DNA from: Vulcanimicrobiota bacterium
GTDB lineage: Bacteria > Vulcanimicrobiota > Vulcanimicrobiia > Vulcanimicrobiales > Vulcanimicrobiaceae
DNA: 64,000 nt
Assembly: GCA_003168375.1 (NCBI GenBank)
Contig: PMSI01000002.1
Span: 372,001-436,000, forward strand
Direction: 5' to 3'
In this document: piece by piece, positions 9,987 through 39,203 of the stretch
How the letters are laid out: each line of letters begins with the position of its first letter
How positions within the stretch are numbered: the first letter of the stretch is position 1
The notes under the pieces: generated by a model
The model's database searches: none
What the model was told of the DNA's origin: nothing
What the model saw: the letters and a program-made list of their open reading frames with translations, nothing else
Position numbers and translations under genes: made by a program

Positions 9987-10904
9987 TCAGGACACCTGCG
10001 TGAGCCAGGGTCCCGGCGCGGGACGAGAGCCCCGAACGATCTCGGTATACGTGGTCCGCAGGCGCCGCGTGAGCGGTCCTTCGTCGCCCATCTCCCGCTC
10101 GTCGATCTGCACGATCGGTACGACTTCGGCGGCAGTCCCGGTGAAGAAGGCTTCGTCGCTGCCGGCGAGATCGGCGGTGGTGATCGGGCGGATCCGCGTC
10201 GTGATCCCCGCCTCGCGCGCGATCGCCAGCACGCTGGCGCGGGTGATGCCGAGCAGGATGTCGGCGTCGACGTCGTTCGTGATCAGCTCGCCGCCCTGAA
10301 CGATGAAGACGTTCTCGCCGGAGCCTTCCGCGATCTCGCCGCGTTCGTTGCGCAGGATCGTCTCATCGAAGCCGCGCGCCTGCGCCTCTGCCAGCGCCCG
10401 GATCGAGTTGGTGTAATGGCCGCCCGCCTTCACCGTGGACGGGAGCGCGCGCGAGGGCGTCTTCATGAACGGCGAGAGCGTCGCGCGGAAGCGCGGCGCC
10501 TCGGTGCTGCCGGGGATCAGCCCTTCGAAGGGGAGGACGGCGATCATCACGTGCACCGGGCACTCGCGGCCCGGGTTGAGCCGGACCGTCTCGCCGCCGA
10601 AGAACGCCAGCGGACGGACGTACGCCGCCTCGCGCCCGCTGGAACGCACGGTCGCGACGATCGCTTCGATCAGGGCGTCCGCGTCCCACGCGAGCTCCAT
10701 GCCGTAGGTCGCGGCGCCGGCGATCAGCCGGTCGACGTGCTCGCGCAGACGAAACACCGCCGGGCCGCGTGGGGTCGGGTAGACGCGAATCCCCTCGAAC
10801 ACCGACGAACCGTAGTGCAGTGCGTGCGTGAGCGCGTGCAGCTGCATTCGGTCGTCGTCGAGCAGCGTGCCGTCGAGCCACACCGTCGTGGCGGTCCGGG
10901 TCAT
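9987..10904 (-). CDS. ilvE: Branched-chain amino acid aminotransferase
   Basis: 305 aa from the ATG at 10904, preceded by AAGGAG; the longer frame upstream is attenuator sequence. It is a fold-type IV PLP enzyme: YGSSVFEGIRVY near residue 40, the PLP lysine in STVKAGGHYTNSI, and ITRASVLAIAREAG near the phosphate site. The length fits IlvE (about 300-310). It carries out the last step of Val, Leu and Ile synthesis in the cytoplasm. A leader peptide rich in these same amino acids and a terminator precede it, which supports the assignment over D-amino-acid transaminase or ADC lyase of the same fold. Confidence 0.92.
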   Translation of the reverse strand: MTRTATTVWLDGTLLDDDRMQLHALTHALHYGSSVFEGIRVYPTPRGPAVFRLREHVDRLIAGAATYGMELAWDADALIEAIVATVRSSGREAAYVRPLAFFGGETVRLNPGRECPVHVMIAVLPFEGLIPGSTEAPRFRATLSPFMKTPSRALPSTVKAGGHYTNSIRALAEAQARGFDETILRNERGEIAEGSGENVFIVQGGELITNDVDADILLGITRASVLAIAREAGITTRIRPITTADLAGSDEAFFTGTAAEVVPIVQIDEREMGDEGPLTRRLRTTYTEIVRGSRPAPGPWLTQVS

Positions 10905-10925
10905 CACGTGTGGTTCTCCTTGAAA

Positions 10926-10961
10926 CGGCGAACGCCCCGGCCGCAGCGGCCGGGGCGTTCG
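10926..10961 (-). terminator. Attenuator terminator of ilvE leader
   Basis: A perfect 15-bp stem (10947-10961 as 5' arm, 10929-10943 as 3' arm on the minus strand, loop of 3) is followed by CCGTTT. It lies between the leader-peptide stop and the ilvE ribosome site. The 5' arm contains CGAACG and CCGGCCG, which can pair instead with CGTTCG (10992-10997) and CGGCCGG (11003-11009) in the leader, giving an antiterminator. The T-run is short. Confidence 0.75.
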
Positions 10962-10986
10962 TTTGCGTTGGTTCTGTGGTGTCTGG

Positions 10987-11067
10987 TTACGCGAACGACG
11001 ATCCGGCCGGCGAGCCAAGCTCGACGATAAAAATAGAAACCGGAAGGACGTAATAGCTCGACGCCAT
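10987..11067 (-). CDS. Val/Leu/Ile leader peptide of ilvE attenuator
   Basis: 26 aa. ATG at 11067, TAA at 10987-10989. The segment VLPVSIFIVEL has seven branched-chain residues in eleven, as in ilv leader peptides of enterobacteria. The ATG comes 8 nt after a -10 element, so the mRNA is probably leaderless. Codons for Val, Leu and Ile lie just before the part of the RNA that can pair with the terminator, so a stalled ribosome would favour the antiterminator. Established for ilv leaders elsewhere; inferred here. Confidence 0.78.
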   Translation of the reverse strand: MASSYYVLPVSIFIVELGSPAGSSFA

Positions 11068-11075
11068 GTTGGCGA

Positions 11076-11105
11076 AGCCTAGCACGGCGGCGGGGTCGCG
11101 GTCAA
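11076..11105 (-). promoter_or_regulatory. Promoter of ilvE leader
   Basis: Minus strand: TTGACC (11105-11100), 18-nt spacer, TAGGCT (11081-11076), then 8 nt to the leader ATG. The same spacing is found before the Thr and Met leaders. Confidence 0.65.
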
Positions 11106-11122
11106 GCGACCCGGCCGCCGTG
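11083..11122 (-). terminator. Terminator-like hairpin after lipoprotein gene
   Basis: A long imperfect stem (9 + 7 bp with one mismatch; 11083-11099 against 11106-11122) starts 10 bp after the stop of the lipoprotein gene. It lacks a T-run and overlaps the ilvE leader promoter. Confidence 0.5.
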
Positions 11123-11132
11123 CCGGTTTGCC

Positions 11133-34019: not shown

Positions 34020-35237
34020 TTAGGCCGCGTCGCGCCAGACGGGGATCATCGACTGCACCTCGCCGCGCCCCTTCGACAAGCTCTGGATGACATGGCCGAA
34101 TCCGCCGGCCGCCGCTTCGAGCGCGTCGAGCGGCATCGCATCACTCGTCACCACGCTGCCGCTCGCGAACCGTACCAGCACCGGCGCGCGTAGCGGCGCG
34201 GACACCAAATCCTCACCCTCGTGCGCCTGCACGCCGCGCTCGCGCGCTTCGAGCGCCGCCAGCACGTCGGCGACGACCGACGACGCGGTCGCGTCACCCC
34301 CCGCACCCGCGCCCGAGAACACCAGCGTGCCGCAGCCGCGTCCGACCACGCGAACCACGTTCTCCGCGCCGCGCGGCCGCGCGAACGGATGATCTTCCGG
34401 CACGAACGCCGGCGTCACGCCGGCCTCGATCACGTCCCCGGCTTTGCGCGCGACCGCGACGAGCTTCAGCCGCAGGCCGCGCTCCGCACCGGCGCGCACG
34501 TCATCGCGCGAGATCCCGCCGATCCCGCGCCGCGCCAGCGCCGGCGAGACCGAGGGGCGGCGGAACGCGAGCCCCGCCAAGATCGCGAGCTTGTGCGCCG
34601 CGTCGTGCCCGTCGACGTCGCTGCGCGGATCCTGCTCGGCGAAGCCGAGCCGTTGCGCTTCCGCAAGCGCGTCCGCGTACTCCGCGCCGCCATCCATCGC
34701 GTCGAGGACGAAGTTGGTCGTACCGTTGAGCACGCCGCCGATCTCGAACACGTCTTCGCCGGCGAGCGATCCGCCGAGCGCGCGCACGATCGGGATCGCA
34801 CCGCCGACCGCGGCCTCGTAGCGCAGCGATGCGCCGGTGCGCGCCGCGAACGCGGCCAGCCACGGCCCCTCGGTCGCGATCAGGTCCTTGTTCGCCGTGA
34901 CGACGTCCTTGCCGCGCGCGATCGCACGCAGGATCAGCTCGCGCGCCAGCCCGAGCCCGCCGATGCACTCCACCACGACCCGCACCGAGGGATCGTCGAC
35001 GACGTCGAACGCGTCGCTCGAGAAATCATCCCACCGAACGTCGCGTGGCTTGTGCGGATCGCGTACCGCGATCCCGCGAATCAGACCCGGATGCGACGCC
35101 AGCAACCGCCGCGCGACCCCCGACCCGACGGTGCCGCAGCCGAGGAGGCCGACCCCGTTCGCGCGCGCCGTCGTCAGCGACGTCGCCGGGGACGAGATCG
35201 CTTCAGACGAGCACAGGACACGCGGTAGGGTTTGCAC
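34020..35237 (-). CDS. hom: Homoserine dehydrogenase
   Basis: 405 aa from GTG 35237, 5 nt after GGAGG; an ATG at 35249 would bury that site in the gene. NAD(P)-binding GLLGCGTVGSGVARRLL, then VTANKDLIATEG, GAIPIVRALGGSLAG, GVLNGTTNFVLDAM and QDPRSDVDGHDAAHKLAILA, all diagnostic. It reduces aspartate semialdehyde to homoserine, the branch to Thr and Met. The C-terminal region (about 80 residues) is a reduced or divergent regulatory part; its last residues run through a dispersed repeat unit. A Thr/Ile leader peptide and terminator precede it. Confidence 0.95.
   Translation of the reverse strand: MQTLPRVLCSSEAISSPATSLTTARANGVGLLGCGTVGSGVARRLLASHPGLIRGIAVRDPHKPRDVRWDDFSSDAFDVVDDPSVRVVVECIGGLGLARELILRAIARGKDVVTANKDLIATEGPWLAAFAARTGASLRYEAAVGGAIPIVRALGGSLAGEDVFEIGGVLNGTTNFVLDAMDGGAEYADALAEAQRLGFAEQDPRSDVDGHDAAHKLAILAGLAFRRPSVSPALARRGIGGISRDDVRAGAERGLRLKLVAVARKAGDVIEAGVTPAFVPEDHPFARPRGAENVVRVVGRGCGTLVFSGAGAGGDATASSVVADVLAALEARERGVQAHEGEDLVSAPLRAPVLVRFASGSVVTSDAMPLDALEAAAGGFGHVIQSLSKGRGEVQSMIPVWRDAA
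34068..34085 (-). repeat. Dispersed repeat unit (CTTCGACA type) inside hom 3' end
   Basis: CCAGAGCTTGTCGAAGGG on the minus strand matches units at 37540-37557 and 61489-61504 (consensus TGAGCYYGTCGAAGGG). It encodes part of the hom C-terminus (QSLSKG). Confidence 0.5.
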
Positions 35238-35268
35238 GGGAACCTCCATGTGGGGTATCGGGGGAATG

Positions 35269-35298
35269 AAAAAGGCCCTCGCCATTCGGCGAGGGCCT
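35269..35298 (-). terminator. Attenuator terminator of hom leader
   Basis: Perfect 11-bp stem (35298-35288 as 5' arm, 35283-35273 as 3' arm, loop GAAT) followed by TTTTT on the minus strand, 31 nt before the hom start. Its 5' arm GCCCTCGCCG (35296-35287) is exactly complementary to CGGCGAGGGC (35355-35346) in the leader peptide reading frame, giving a 10-bp antiterminator. Confidence 0.88.
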
Positions 35299-35321
35299 CG
35301 TCTCGTATCGCTTCGTCCGCG

Positions 35322-35408
35322 CTAAGCCGACGTCGATCCGGACCTGCCCTCGCCGAGGGTAGTCGTCGTCGTGATCGTCGTCGTCATAATGACGCAGAGC
35401 GCGGGCAT
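35322..35408 (-). CDS. Thr/Ile leader peptide of hom attenuator
   Basis: 28 aa from ATG 35408 (or 21 aa from the in-frame ATG 35387). Its core MTTTITTTTTLGEG closely mirrors enterobacterial ThrL. Nine Thr and two Ile residues; seven of nine Thr codons are ACG. The first ATG is 9 nt after the -10, so the mRNA is probably leaderless. The region coding LGEG is the antiterminator strand. Stalling at Thr codons would prevent the terminator from forming and let hom be made. Confidence 0.85.
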   Translation of the reverse strand: MPALCVIMTTTITTTTTLGEGRSGSTSA

Positions 35409-35417
35409 CGTTCAGTG

Positions 35418-35447
35418 ACCCTACCACGGCCGCACCCCCTCGCACAA
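35418..35447 (-). promoter_or_regulatory. Promoter of hom leader
   Basis: Minus strand: TTGTGC (35447-35442), 18-nt spacer, TAGGGT (35423-35418), 9 nt to the leader ATG; same geometry as the ilvE and metY leaders. Confidence 0.58.
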
Positions 35448-35463
35448 GTGGGCAACCAATCCT

Positions 35464-36468
35464 TTACCGAGTGTTGGCCCGAGCGAGCCACATCTCGATC
35501 GCGGCGTTGACCTGCGCGGGTTGCTCCTGAGCCATCCAGTGCCCCGTCTCCAGAACGAGCTCGGTCAAGTCGGAGCAATCACGCCGCATCGGCTCGGCCA
35601 AACGCGAGTCGACGGTTTCGCAGATCGCATCGTAGGCGGCGTGCAGGAACAACACCGGCAACCGCAGCGCTCCGCCGTCCGCGACGCGAGCCGCGTAGGC
35701 CATGTTCCGGTCGGGGTTCAGATACCAGGAATCGGGTCCCGCGAATCCGGTCCGCGCGAACGCGAAGACGTATCGCGCGAGGTCGTCTTCGGACAGCACC
35801 GCCGGATCGCGCGGCAGATCCGGCGCGCGCCCCGTCCCGCCGAACCAGCCGCCGTCACGGGTGACGCGGGCCGTGAGTGCGGGCTTCCCTTTCTCCCGGA
35901 CGTCTCCGCGGCGGAACAGCGCCTTGAACGTCGCCGGCAAGTCGGCTTCGAACGCCGCCGCAGCGGCGTCGGCTGCGGTCTGATAAAACAACTGGTAATC
36001 CCACTGCCCCGCGGGATACTTCGCTTCCGGATAGACGGTCCGGTCGACCAGCGGCACCACGGTCTCCGGCGTGAAGCCCTTCGCGAAGTACGGGACGCAC
36101 AGGCTGACGACACCGTCGCAACGCTCGGGATGATGTCCGGCGAGCGCCCAGACGAGCGGACCGCCCCAGTCATGACCGATCCAGGTCGCGCGTTCCGCTC
36201 CGAGGCCGCGCAACAGCTCGACCATGTCGAGGACGACCTGCTCCAGCGCGTAGTCCTCGGGGTTTCCCGGGACGTCCGATCTGCCGTATCCGCGCATGTC
36301 GGGCGCGACGCACCGGTATCCGAGCGCCCCGAAATGCTCGAGCTGCTCCCGCCACATCATCCCGAGCGCGGGCCAACCGTGGACGAAGATCAGGAGCGGT
36401 CCGTCGGGCGGCCCGCTCTCGAGATACGCCGTCGTGTGTCGCTCGGTCCGAACGACGTGCTCGGTCAC
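35464..36468 (-). CDS. Alpha/beta hydrolase, epoxide hydrolase-like
   Basis: 334 aa, GTG start overlapping the metX stop by 4 bp. Oxyanion-hole motif HGWPAL, nucleophile in IGHDWGGP (Asp, as in epoxide hydrolases and haloalkane dehalogenases), APDMRGYGRSDVP, and the C-terminal His in LETGHWMAQEQP. HGWP and Asp nucleophile favour a soluble epoxide hydrolase. It is the third gene of a metY-metX operon; a role in sulfur or methionine metabolism is not evident, so it may simply be carried along. Confidence 0.82.
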   Translation of the reverse strand: MTEHVVRTERHTTAYLESGPPDGPLLIFVHGWPALGMMWREQLEHFGALGYRCVAPDMRGYGRSDVPGNPEDYALEQVVLDMVELLRGLGAERATWIGHDWGGPLVWALAGHHPERCDGVVSLCVPYFAKGFTPETVVPLVDRTVYPEAKYPAGQWDYQLFYQTAADAAAAAFEADLPATFKALFRRGDVREKGKPALTARVTRDGGWFGGTGRAPDLPRDPAVLSEDDLARYVFAFARTGFAGPDSWYLNPDRNMAYAARVADGGALRLPVLFLHAAYDAICETVDSRLAEPMRRDCSDLTELVLETGHWMAQEQPAQVNAAIEMWLARANTR

Positions 36469-37567
36469 GAGACCGCCGAGGTGCCGGCGCGGAATGCGCT
36501 CCCGATGCCATCGCGCAGCACGGCCGCCAACGATTCCGGCTCGGCGAGAAACGCGTCGTGTCCGTGATCGCTCGCCAGATCGCGATACTCGACGTCCCAG
36601 CCCGCCTCGCTCCAGCGCGCCGCGCAACTGCGCACGAACTCCGGCGGATACAGCTGGTCGCCGGCGATTCCGACGAACGTGAATCGCGTCGAGCCCGCCG
36701 GCCGCTCCTTCCCGCGCAGATCGAACAAGTCCATCGCACGCGTCAGCATCAAATAGCTGTTCGCATCGAACCGCTGCACGAACACGTCGCCCTGATGCGC
36801 CAGATAGCCTTCGACGTCGAAGCGGTCACCGAGCGAGCGCGACGGATCACCGCCGGCCCGATCCGGCCGGTTCGCGAATCGCGTTTCGAAGAGCGCCTCG
36901 CTCTTGTAGGTCAGCGTCGCGATCGCGCGAGCCAGGCGCAGGCCGTCGACCGGCGGCTCCTCGTACCAGCCCCCGGCGAATTTTGGATCGAGCCGGATCG
37001 CCTCGCGCGCGGCGAAGTTCTGCGCGATCCCCTGCGCGCGCAAGTGATCGAACGTCCCGACCACGATCGCATGATCGACCGCGTCGTCGTACCCGCGCAC
37101 CCACTGCAGGCACTGCTGACCGCCGAGCGACCCGCCGATCGCGACCGCGACCCGCGGAATCCCCAGCTCGCGCAGCGCGCGCCGCTGCGCCTCGACCATG
37201 TCGCCGACGGTGACGACCGGAAACCGCGGACCCCACCGCCGCCCGTCCGGCGCGAGCGAGGACGGCCCGGTCGAGCCGTAGCATCCGCCGAGCACGTTGA
37301 CGCCGACGACACACCACTGTGCGAGATCGAACAGCCCGCCCTCACCGACCAATCCGTCCCACCACTCGACGACGCGCGACGAGCCGCTCAGGGCGTGCGC
37401 GACGAACACGACGTTCGACCCGTCGGCCTTCGGCTCACGCCCGTATCGCGTCACGCGCTGCACGACCGACGGAATCGACGCGCCGGAGGCCAGCTCCAGC
37501 GCGCCGATCTCCACATCACGTTCCGTGATGTGAGCCCGCCCTGAGCCCGTCGAAGGGTCGTGCTCGG

Positions 37568-37571
<4 letters not shown>
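36465..37571 (-). CDS. metX: Homoserine O-acetyltransferase
   Basis: 368 aa, GTG start overlapping the metY stop (GTGA). Alpha/beta hydrolase fold with [23 protein letters not shown], nucleophile [14 protein letters not shown], and C-terminal Asp/His region [13 protein letters not shown]. It acetylates (or succinylates) homoserine for direct sulfhydrylation by MetY. The first 17 codons run through a dispersed repeat unit ([14 protein letters not shown]), which may be a recent N-terminal extension; the conserved domain begins around residue 20. Confidence 0.93.
37540..37557 (+). repeat. Dispersed repeat unit at metX 5' end
   Basis: CCTGAGCCCGTCGAAGGG; on the coding (minus) strand it encodes DPSTGSG at the metX N-terminus. 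Same unit as at 34068-34085 and 61489-61504. Confidence 0.55.
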
Positions 37572-38866
<1,295 letters not shown>

Positions 38867-38908: not shown

Positions 38909-38946
38909 AAAACGAAGCAACCCCCGCTGGTGAGGCGAGGGTTGCT
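38909..38946 (-). terminator. Attenuator terminator of metY leader
   Basis: 12-bp stem (38946-38935 as 5' arm with 38927-38916, one G-U pair, loop of 7) followed by TCGTTTT on the minus strand. The 5' arm segment CAACCCTCGC (38944-38935) is exactly complementary to GCGAGGGTTG (38998-38989) inside the leader peptide gene, giving an alternative 10-bp antiterminator. Confidence 0.85.
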
Positions 38947-38966
38947 GTAGCTCCGTCGTACGCCGG

Positions 38967-39041
38967 CTAGGGCGACGACGATCTACACCAACCCTCGCGG
39001 GTGGCACACATCGCCATAATCGCCATACAGCGGCCGTTCAT
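38967..39041 (-). CDS. Met/Cys-rich leader peptide of metY attenuator
   Basis: 24 aa from ATG 39041 (a shorter version could begin at ATG 39026). The segment MNGRCMAIMAMC has four Met and two Cys in twelve residues; a third Cys follows in EGWC. No ribosome site is visible, but the ATG is 8 nt after the -10, so leaderless translation is likely. The codons for REGW form the antiterminator strand. Methionine or cysteine shortage would stall ribosomes and relieve termination. Confidence 0.8.
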   Translation of the reverse strand: MNGRCMAIMAMCATREGWCRSSSP

Positions 39042-39049
39042 ATGGCCGG

Positions 39050-39079
39050 ACCGTACCAGAACCGGCCCGGGGCAGTCAA
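39050..39079 (-). promoter_or_regulatory. Promoter of metY leader
   Basis: Minus strand: TTGACT (39079-39074), 18-nt spacer, TACGGT (39055-39050), 8 nt to the leader ATG. The gene-free stretch 38867-39236 holds this attenuator and, at its other end, the blaI operator; nothing else is visible in 39080-39203. Confidence 0.62.
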
Positions 39080-39203
39080 GGACAGCGCATCACGAAAAAC
39101 CGCGTTTGGCCGCCCGGGCCGTCGACCGAGCGGCGAGCCGCTTCTTGGTGAGCCGGCTTGATCTCGGGGTGTCGCGAGTCGAGGATTCTCCGTTCGTGGA
39201 GCG

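Follow-up and report, generated by a model that had tools for sequence, protein, structure and literature searches.

In E. coli, the ilvGMEDA attenuator exerts multivalent control by valine, leucine and isoleucine over an operon that includes ilvE and, compared with the ilvE leader described here, it has a leader bearing a Shine-Dalgarno (SD) sequence, a full U-tract and an unrelated sequence. As outlined in the accessible text, the ilvBNC attenuator of Corynebacterium glutamicum combines a Leu/Val leader peptide with a terminator, an antiterminator and an anti-antiterminator (PMC11857589). For Streptomyces lividans, the leader peptides LeuL1, LeuL2, TrpL1 and TrpL2 are described as leaderless, and TrpL2, in the portion available, is presented with two hairpins and without a uridine-rich stretch (PMC8079986). 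Also, the trpL leader RNA of Sinorhizobium (S. meliloti) is reported to start with the ATG of the leader ORF (PMC7298713), and candidate ilv, cys and trp leader peptides were put forward in Actinobacteria (PMC1262725). According to a 2010 survey, knowledge of leader-peptide systems had until then been limited to Proteobacteria and Actinobacteria, to which that survey added Firmicutes (PMC2965389). For Eremiobacterota/Vulcanimicrobiota, our searches of an open-access library, a scope that leaves most subscription journals outside, turned up no account of attenuation by leader peptides.

The window, meaning the whole 64-kb stretch of DNA that was analyzed, comes from a Vulcanimicrobium-like host of the Vulcanimicrobiota, a phylum earlier named Eremiobacterota or WPS-2; the group consists of soil bacteria that have received little study. 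On its minus strand throughout, a promoter-like element, a leader ORF, a hairpin, an SD sequence and ilvE follow one another. A sequence-only reading of this DNA had proposed a Val/Leu/Ile leader attenuator before ilvE; what it observed was confirmed, and its interpretation largely holds in view of the identity of ilvE, the conservation of the leader and the codon logic of its relatives. We consider it very probable that the ilvE leader is a ribosome-mediated transcription attenuator sensing Val/Leu/Ile. Our study adds to that reading a probably leaderless start, a possible anti-antiterminator and the membership in a clade-wide family with two further copies in the window. The features of the locus are the following, in the direction of transcription:

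11100-11105, minus strand: -35-like element TTGACC (sequence), in the loop of an 18-nt inverted repeat (94% complementary)
11076-11081, minus strand: -10-like element TAGGCT (sequence), with an 18-nt spacer from the -35-like element
10987-11067, minus strand: leader ORF of 26 codons, probably leaderless, from ATG at 11067 to the TAA stop at 10989-10987
11017-11049, minus strand: control codons 7-17 (V L P V S I F I V E L), many of them ending in T, a codon type seldom used in this genome
11002-11044, minus strand: possible anti-antiterminator, UCCGG (11044-11040) with CCGGA (11006-11002), from a fold of the leader ORF alone
11011-11023, minus strand: small hairpin CGAGC-UUG-GCUCG within the leader ORF
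10989-11009, minus strand: antiterminator 5' strand (swap test, folding)
10947-10968, minus strand: antiterminator 3' strand, overlapping the terminator 5' arm (swap test, folding)
10929-10961, minus strand: terminator hairpin of 15 bp (sequence, folding)
10923-10925, minus strand: the sole T-run past the hairpin, three T (sequence)
10916-10921, minus strand: SD sequence AAGGAG of ilvE (sequence)
9987-10907, minus strand: ilvE, branched-chain aminotransferase, starting at GTG 10907 or ATG 10904

The product of the downstream gene scores 287.2 bits against NCBIfam TIGR01122 (ilvE_I; cutoff 245.55), also exceeds the cutoff of PRK06606 (branched-chain transaminase) and carries the Pfam domain Aminotran_4, the gene thus being one that makes the amino acids to be sensed. 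It is preceded by a short leader ORF with codons for the products of this pathway, whose translation is predicted. The ORF of 26 codons with VLPVSIFIVEL that had been described was found at 11067-10987 and encodes the peptide MASSYYVLPVSIFIVELGSPAGSSFA. Among the I/L/V/F codons of the eight leaders of the genus, 34 of 60 end in T, versus 27 of 635 in five genes of the window. The share of I/L/V in residues 2-18 is 0.37 in ilvE leaders versus 0.61 in ilvC and 0.51 in ilvB leaders.

The perfect 15-bp terminator hairpin that the sequence-only reading had recognized is formed by 16-nt perfect arms (10961-10946 and 10944-10929), which fold into 15 bp with a 3-nt loop at -33.0 kcal/mol, and a 25-nt spacer separates it from the leader ORF. 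Perfect inverted repeats with arms of at least 13 nt and loops of at most 8 nt occur only twice in the window, this hairpin being one of them. The two-part antiterminator proposed before was recovered as helices of 7 bp (11009-11003 with 10953-10947) and 6 bp (10997-10992 with 10961-10956), to which we add a further short block near 10992-10989 with 10968-10965. Its energy is -26.6 kcal/mol as long as the terminator 3' arm is unmade, and the completed terminator is more stable. Both structures are mutually exclusive and, by geometry, a ribosome at the stop codon would reach the antiterminator 5' strand. Taken as a whole, the 187-nt region does not have an unusually stable fold (z -1.42; 19 of 200 shuffles equally good).

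From this arrangement we infer that the transcript would start on the leader ATG, or no more than a few bases away from it, and that the leader would be read leaderless. With ample charged Val-, Leu- and Ile-tRNA, the ribosome would reach the stop codon at 10989-10987, where its footprint would cover much of the antiterminator 5' strand; the 15-bp hairpin at 10961-10929 would then form and RNA polymerase would halt before ilvE. If charged Val-, Leu- or Ile-tRNA were scarce, the ribosome would stall at codons 7-15 and leave 11009-10989 free to pair with 10968-10947 before the terminator 3' arm is made, allowing read-through into ilvE. If the leader were untranslated, the pairing of UCCGG with CCGGA together with the small hairpin could hide the antiterminator strand, which would lead to termination by default.

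The sequence-only reading had pointed out that the T-run has only three bases and had questioned termination, a justified doubt, since the T-runs after the ilvE hairpins of the genus have 2-3 bases in all eight copies and none reaches four. Runs of at least four T are present in 101 of 127 other family matches and in 50 of 66 matches of the same genus before other genes. At the ilvE locus, CCGTTTC overlaps the end of the hairpin ahead of AAGGAG. This short run would also fit a hairpin acting after transcription, as a translational or stability element before ilvE whose formation the leader ORF decides. In the same direction points the position of the SD sequence, which, as noted before, lies a few bases past the hairpin and starts 7 nt after the stem (10921-10916). 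However, this site is outside the terminator (10961-10929), the antiterminator (11009-10947) and the other listed helices, about 21 nt lie between the end of the stem and the start codon, and the U-runs of at least four bases in 101 of 127 related copies point to termination in the family; we regard such a post-transcriptional role as unlikely. Its translational form, a hairpin acting on translation of ilvE, had been offered as the alternative; it is unsupported, and a masking of the SD sequence of ilvE was rejected, because neither alternative helix holds that site. Returning to transcription attenuation, either the 15-bp GC stem of this U-poor hairpin suffices (TrpL2 of S. lividans, too, is described without a uridine-rich stretch), or another factor helps, or termination is weak. 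An ilvE hairpin free of a U-tract provides a test case for how such stems stop the polymerase.

The leader ATG is located 8 nt downstream of the -10-like element. Consensus scans for promoters and terminators on the minus strand flagged neither this promoter nor this terminator, because the -10 element is weak and the T-run short. TTGAC together with a leader start was found in 122 of 135 family matches, with the start codon 36-42 nt from the first T, a count that is partly selected because the covariance model used to find the matches includes the promoter region. Of 134 leaders, 122 begin with ATG and 12 with GTG. The usual promoter spacing puts such start codons within a few nucleotides of the transcript start. 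The leader is probably translated leaderless, to judge from its sequence, because the distance from promoter to start codon leaves no room for an SD sequence. Additionally, the 18-nt inverted repeat (94%) at 11082-11123 on the minus strand has exactly TTGACC as its 6-nt loop and the promoter spacer as its second arm; a similar repeat was seen by eye in another genome (G095) and partly in two more (G088 and G089). The repeat may act as an operator or may terminate the upstream gene. In two loci of a neighbouring genus (L012 and L013, in G059 and G060), ilvE seems to be leaderless itself, directly after a like promoter and without leader or attenuator.

The ilvE protein was sought in 99 genomes of the family, 11 of which belong to the genus of the window, and some match was obtained in 95. 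A close ortholog (77-100% identity) is present in nine of the 11 genus genomes, and the comparison of their upstream regions, which had been suggested as a check, revealed that eight of the nine retain the leader in its frame together with the two pairing partners. One genome of the genus (G090) has an ilvE with promoter and SD sequence, without leader. In all eight leaders the frame spans 25-26 codons and the terminator stem lies between leader ORF and ilvE; the antiterminator strand CGGCCGGATCGTCGTTCGCGTAR is invariant and the terminator arm nearly so. The small hairpin has one compensated pair, A-U in four members and G-C in the other four. Covariation inside the genus is weak, its score being matched by 54 of 500 shuffles, and the terminator hardly varies; therefore distant relatives were used for covariation, the genus varying too little to decide.

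The C-terminal AGSSFA of the peptide is also invariant within the genus, which would suit a leader peptide conserved as a trans-acting product, a role reported, in the available text, for peTrpL of S. meliloti (PMC7298713). The invariant 3' end of the leader is accounted for by its service as antiterminator strand, and codons 2-17 change freely, with 62 non-synonymous versus 5 synonymous differences in ten pairwise comparisons among five genus leaders. A functional trans peptide was rejected on these grounds, and we regard it as extremely improbable. The same layout precedes ilvE in four other genera with divergent sequence, with U-runs and with their own matching antiterminator, their leaders containing LLTDSII, LLTDMVI, LGLVIL and FVDVVVI. 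In seven upstream stretches of ilvE relatives outside the group, no such leader was seen by eye; named contigs identical to contigs of the genome set were counted once.

Covariance models R1 and R2 located further copies before other genes, with many false or weak matches; those without the order promoter-leader-terminator were rejected by eye (16 of 36 and 18 of 23 of those inspected, respectively; among the 36, L074, L075, L082, L083, L104, L106, L110-L115, L117-L119 and L122). A general model, R3, was built from 29 sequences with the promoter included. At E<=0.1 it matches every one of the 11 genomes of the genus. At E<=0.01 it matches 73 of the 99 genomes of the family, short terminator-only matches included, and at E<=1e-6 the number for the whole phylum is 58 of 149, namely 54 of 99 inside the family and 4 of 50 outside. 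These four are all of one genus from another family of the same order, and the 50 outside-family genomes double as a rough background for R3. The 135 matches considered here were taken from the R3 searches, weaker and partial ones being omitted and L238 being dropped as a duplicate of L188. For the structure alignment, 100 sources gave 89 matches at E<=1e-8 and 55 representatives below 70% identity.

We found that the antiterminator strands of each leader fit each other better than they fit those of other leaders: in this swap test, 54 of the 55 representatives gave stronger pairing with their own strands than with the median swapped partner, with means of -27.6 kcal/mol for own versus -21.8 kcal/mol for swapped pairs (0 of 20,000 permutations). 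In the terminator, six of nine pairs changed on both sides among 87 distinct rows of an alignment fitted to that helix (0 of 500 shuffles). A fixed-register antiterminator is paired in 79.5% of the cells of the 87 rows, above all 500 shuffles and all slides; two of five measures, however, are no higher than in shuffles, and two of the pairs each lack pairing in 26 of 87 rows. In the ilvE rows of the genus, the antiterminator takes a register different from the fixed one. Furthermore, spacers of different gene families share at least 11 identical bases in 8 pairs, versus 0.2 per shuffled run, which favours a putative copying between operons, the pairs being few and some coming from the same or sister genomes. 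At gathering scores, Rfam detects only a tRNA in the window; the leader region gives six sub-threshold matches, all far below, and no Rfam or T-box match was obtained in 20 related loci. A T-box or a described riboswitch or leader family of Rfam was thus rejected, as no covariance model matched.

Genes downstream of the matches were labelled by BLAST to representatives, most of them named by NCBIfam, and 128 of 135 were classed: pheA-type 24, ilvB 17, ilvE 12, ilvC 12, hom 10, ssuA-type 9, metY 8, aroA 7, sulfite reductase 7, DAHP synthase 5, ilvA 4 and smaller classes. The seven unlabelled ones include three before PAPS reductase, one before a TauE-type exporter and one before an ABC permease, all five named by Pfam and all preceded by Cys-containing leaders, and one without match. 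Two of the matches are in the window itself:

35269-35453, minus strand: second member, Thr leader MPALCVIMTTTITTTTTLGEGRSGSTSA before homoserine dehydrogenase
38914-39085, minus strand: third member, Met/Cys leader MNGRCMAIMAMCATREGWCRSSSP before O-acetylhomoserine sulfhydrylase/homocysteine synthase

The hom leader contains nine Thr in 28 residues and homoserine dehydrogenase occupies 34020-35285 (minus strand). The metY gene (37568-38866, minus strand) lies beside an ORF that by eye is homoserine O-acetyltransferase-like (36465-38009, minus strand).

Residues 2-18 of 122 of the 135 leaders were compared in four groups (BCAA, Thr, aromatic and sulfur); the 13 dropped were the 7 without label, 3 before a gene of unknown product with Tyr leaders, 2 aspartokinase-like and 1 peroxiredoxin. 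Composition alone names the right pathway group in 115 of 122 leaders, and when labels were permuted 100,000 times among the 16 gene families, the observed score was reached in no case. The pattern is Thr before hom, Cys/Met before sulfur genes and Phe/Tyr/Trp before aromatic genes; the seven misses include an ilvE leader scored as aromatic (G087) and two ilvB leaders. The agreement between leader and gene played no part in finding the leaders, and it constitutes strong evidence, at the level of sequence, that leaders of this kind undergo translation and sense what their pathway makes. The failure of the consensus scan to give a promoter would be expected if the hairpin were a plain terminator and the leader ORF either accidental or a small gene of no relevance here, with ilvE driven from another promoter. 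This seems to us highly improbable, given that leader codons fit the downstream pathway so widely, that the antiterminator strands fit each other and that TTGAC lies 36-42 nt before the start codon in all 122 matches having it with a leader.

Some further members deserve mention. Copies in one genome (G087) precede ilvE, ilvA, ilvC, ssuA, aroA, PAPS reductase, sulfite reductase, hom, pheA and metY. Three Tyr-rich leaders (L088, L265 and L270), such as MFALYASAYYYYGCLNTS, precede one type of protein, whose representative (L270) has no match in NCBIfam, Pfam or PDB sequences. We take this product to resemble PqqC/CADD-like dimetal oxidases, a group in which certain members use a tyrosine to produce p-aminobenzoate. 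Thr/Ile/Met codons mark the leader L107 (in G051), which stands before a 426-aa protein that combines part of an amino-acid kinase domain with ACT domains and, at its C-terminal end, a winged-helix DNA-binding domain; this protein may be a regulator that arose from aspartokinase. Outside amino-acid synthesis, a Cys-rich leader MFETGRSAMCCCLCRP (L199, G094:C19:22075-22249, plus strand) precedes a peroxiredoxin. Also, two members are found back to back, divergent, before ilvC and an ssuA-type gene (L155/L165, G088:C4:1069737-1070182).

Taken as a family, these leaders lead us to favour, with some reserve, a picture in which one chassis, consisting of a leaderless start and a common antiterminator/terminator core, would have been reused in Vulcanimicrobiaceae for branched-chain, threonine, aromatic, tryptophan and sulfur pathways, spreading by copying from operon to operon while changes were confined to the sensor codons. 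It would provide regulon-like control without a shared protein, and the genus ilvE copy would have come to rely on a long GC stem, free of a U-tract, to stop the polymerase. In Vulcanimicrobiota, most amino-acid pathways appear to be served by leader-peptide systems, one complete genome having about ten copies. As the leaders name the amino acid sensed by each operon, they may aid gene annotation, for example with the Cys leaders before PAPS reductase and the TauE-type exporter. The first cultivated species of the phylum was described in 2022, and tests are feasible with the cultivated Vulcanimicrobium alpinum WC8-2 (PMC9758169), now placed in Vulcanimicrobiota.

The mechanism is already known from amino-acid attenuators, and its spread in Vulcanimicrobiaceae seems to be unreported. 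As far as the available text goes, the ilvE leader shares with ilvBNC of C. glutamicum the three-hairpin logic with a leader peptide before a branched-chain gene; it differs in that the latter stands before ilvB, whereas here the attenuator precedes ilvE, lacks the U-run and has a layout common to other pathways (PMC11857589). The trpL system of S. meliloti concerns tryptophan in another phylum and has a trans-acting peptide (PMC7298713). The candidates of Actinobacteria likewise have leader ORFs with BCAA, Cys or Trp codons; in the portion available, their cys leaders are without obvious terminators and their LEU elements form a pseudoknot, whereas the Cys/Met leaders described here share the terminator layout of the rest (PMC1262725). 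As in the leaders of S. lividans, the ORF stands at the probable transcript start behind the TTGACn/TAnnnT promoter of leaderless genes; in the accessible text, eight leaders are individually described in that organism, several of them before tRNA-ligase genes (PMC8079986), whereas in Vulcanimicrobiaceae genes of the BCAA, Thr, aromatic and sulfur groups have one recognisable layout in common.
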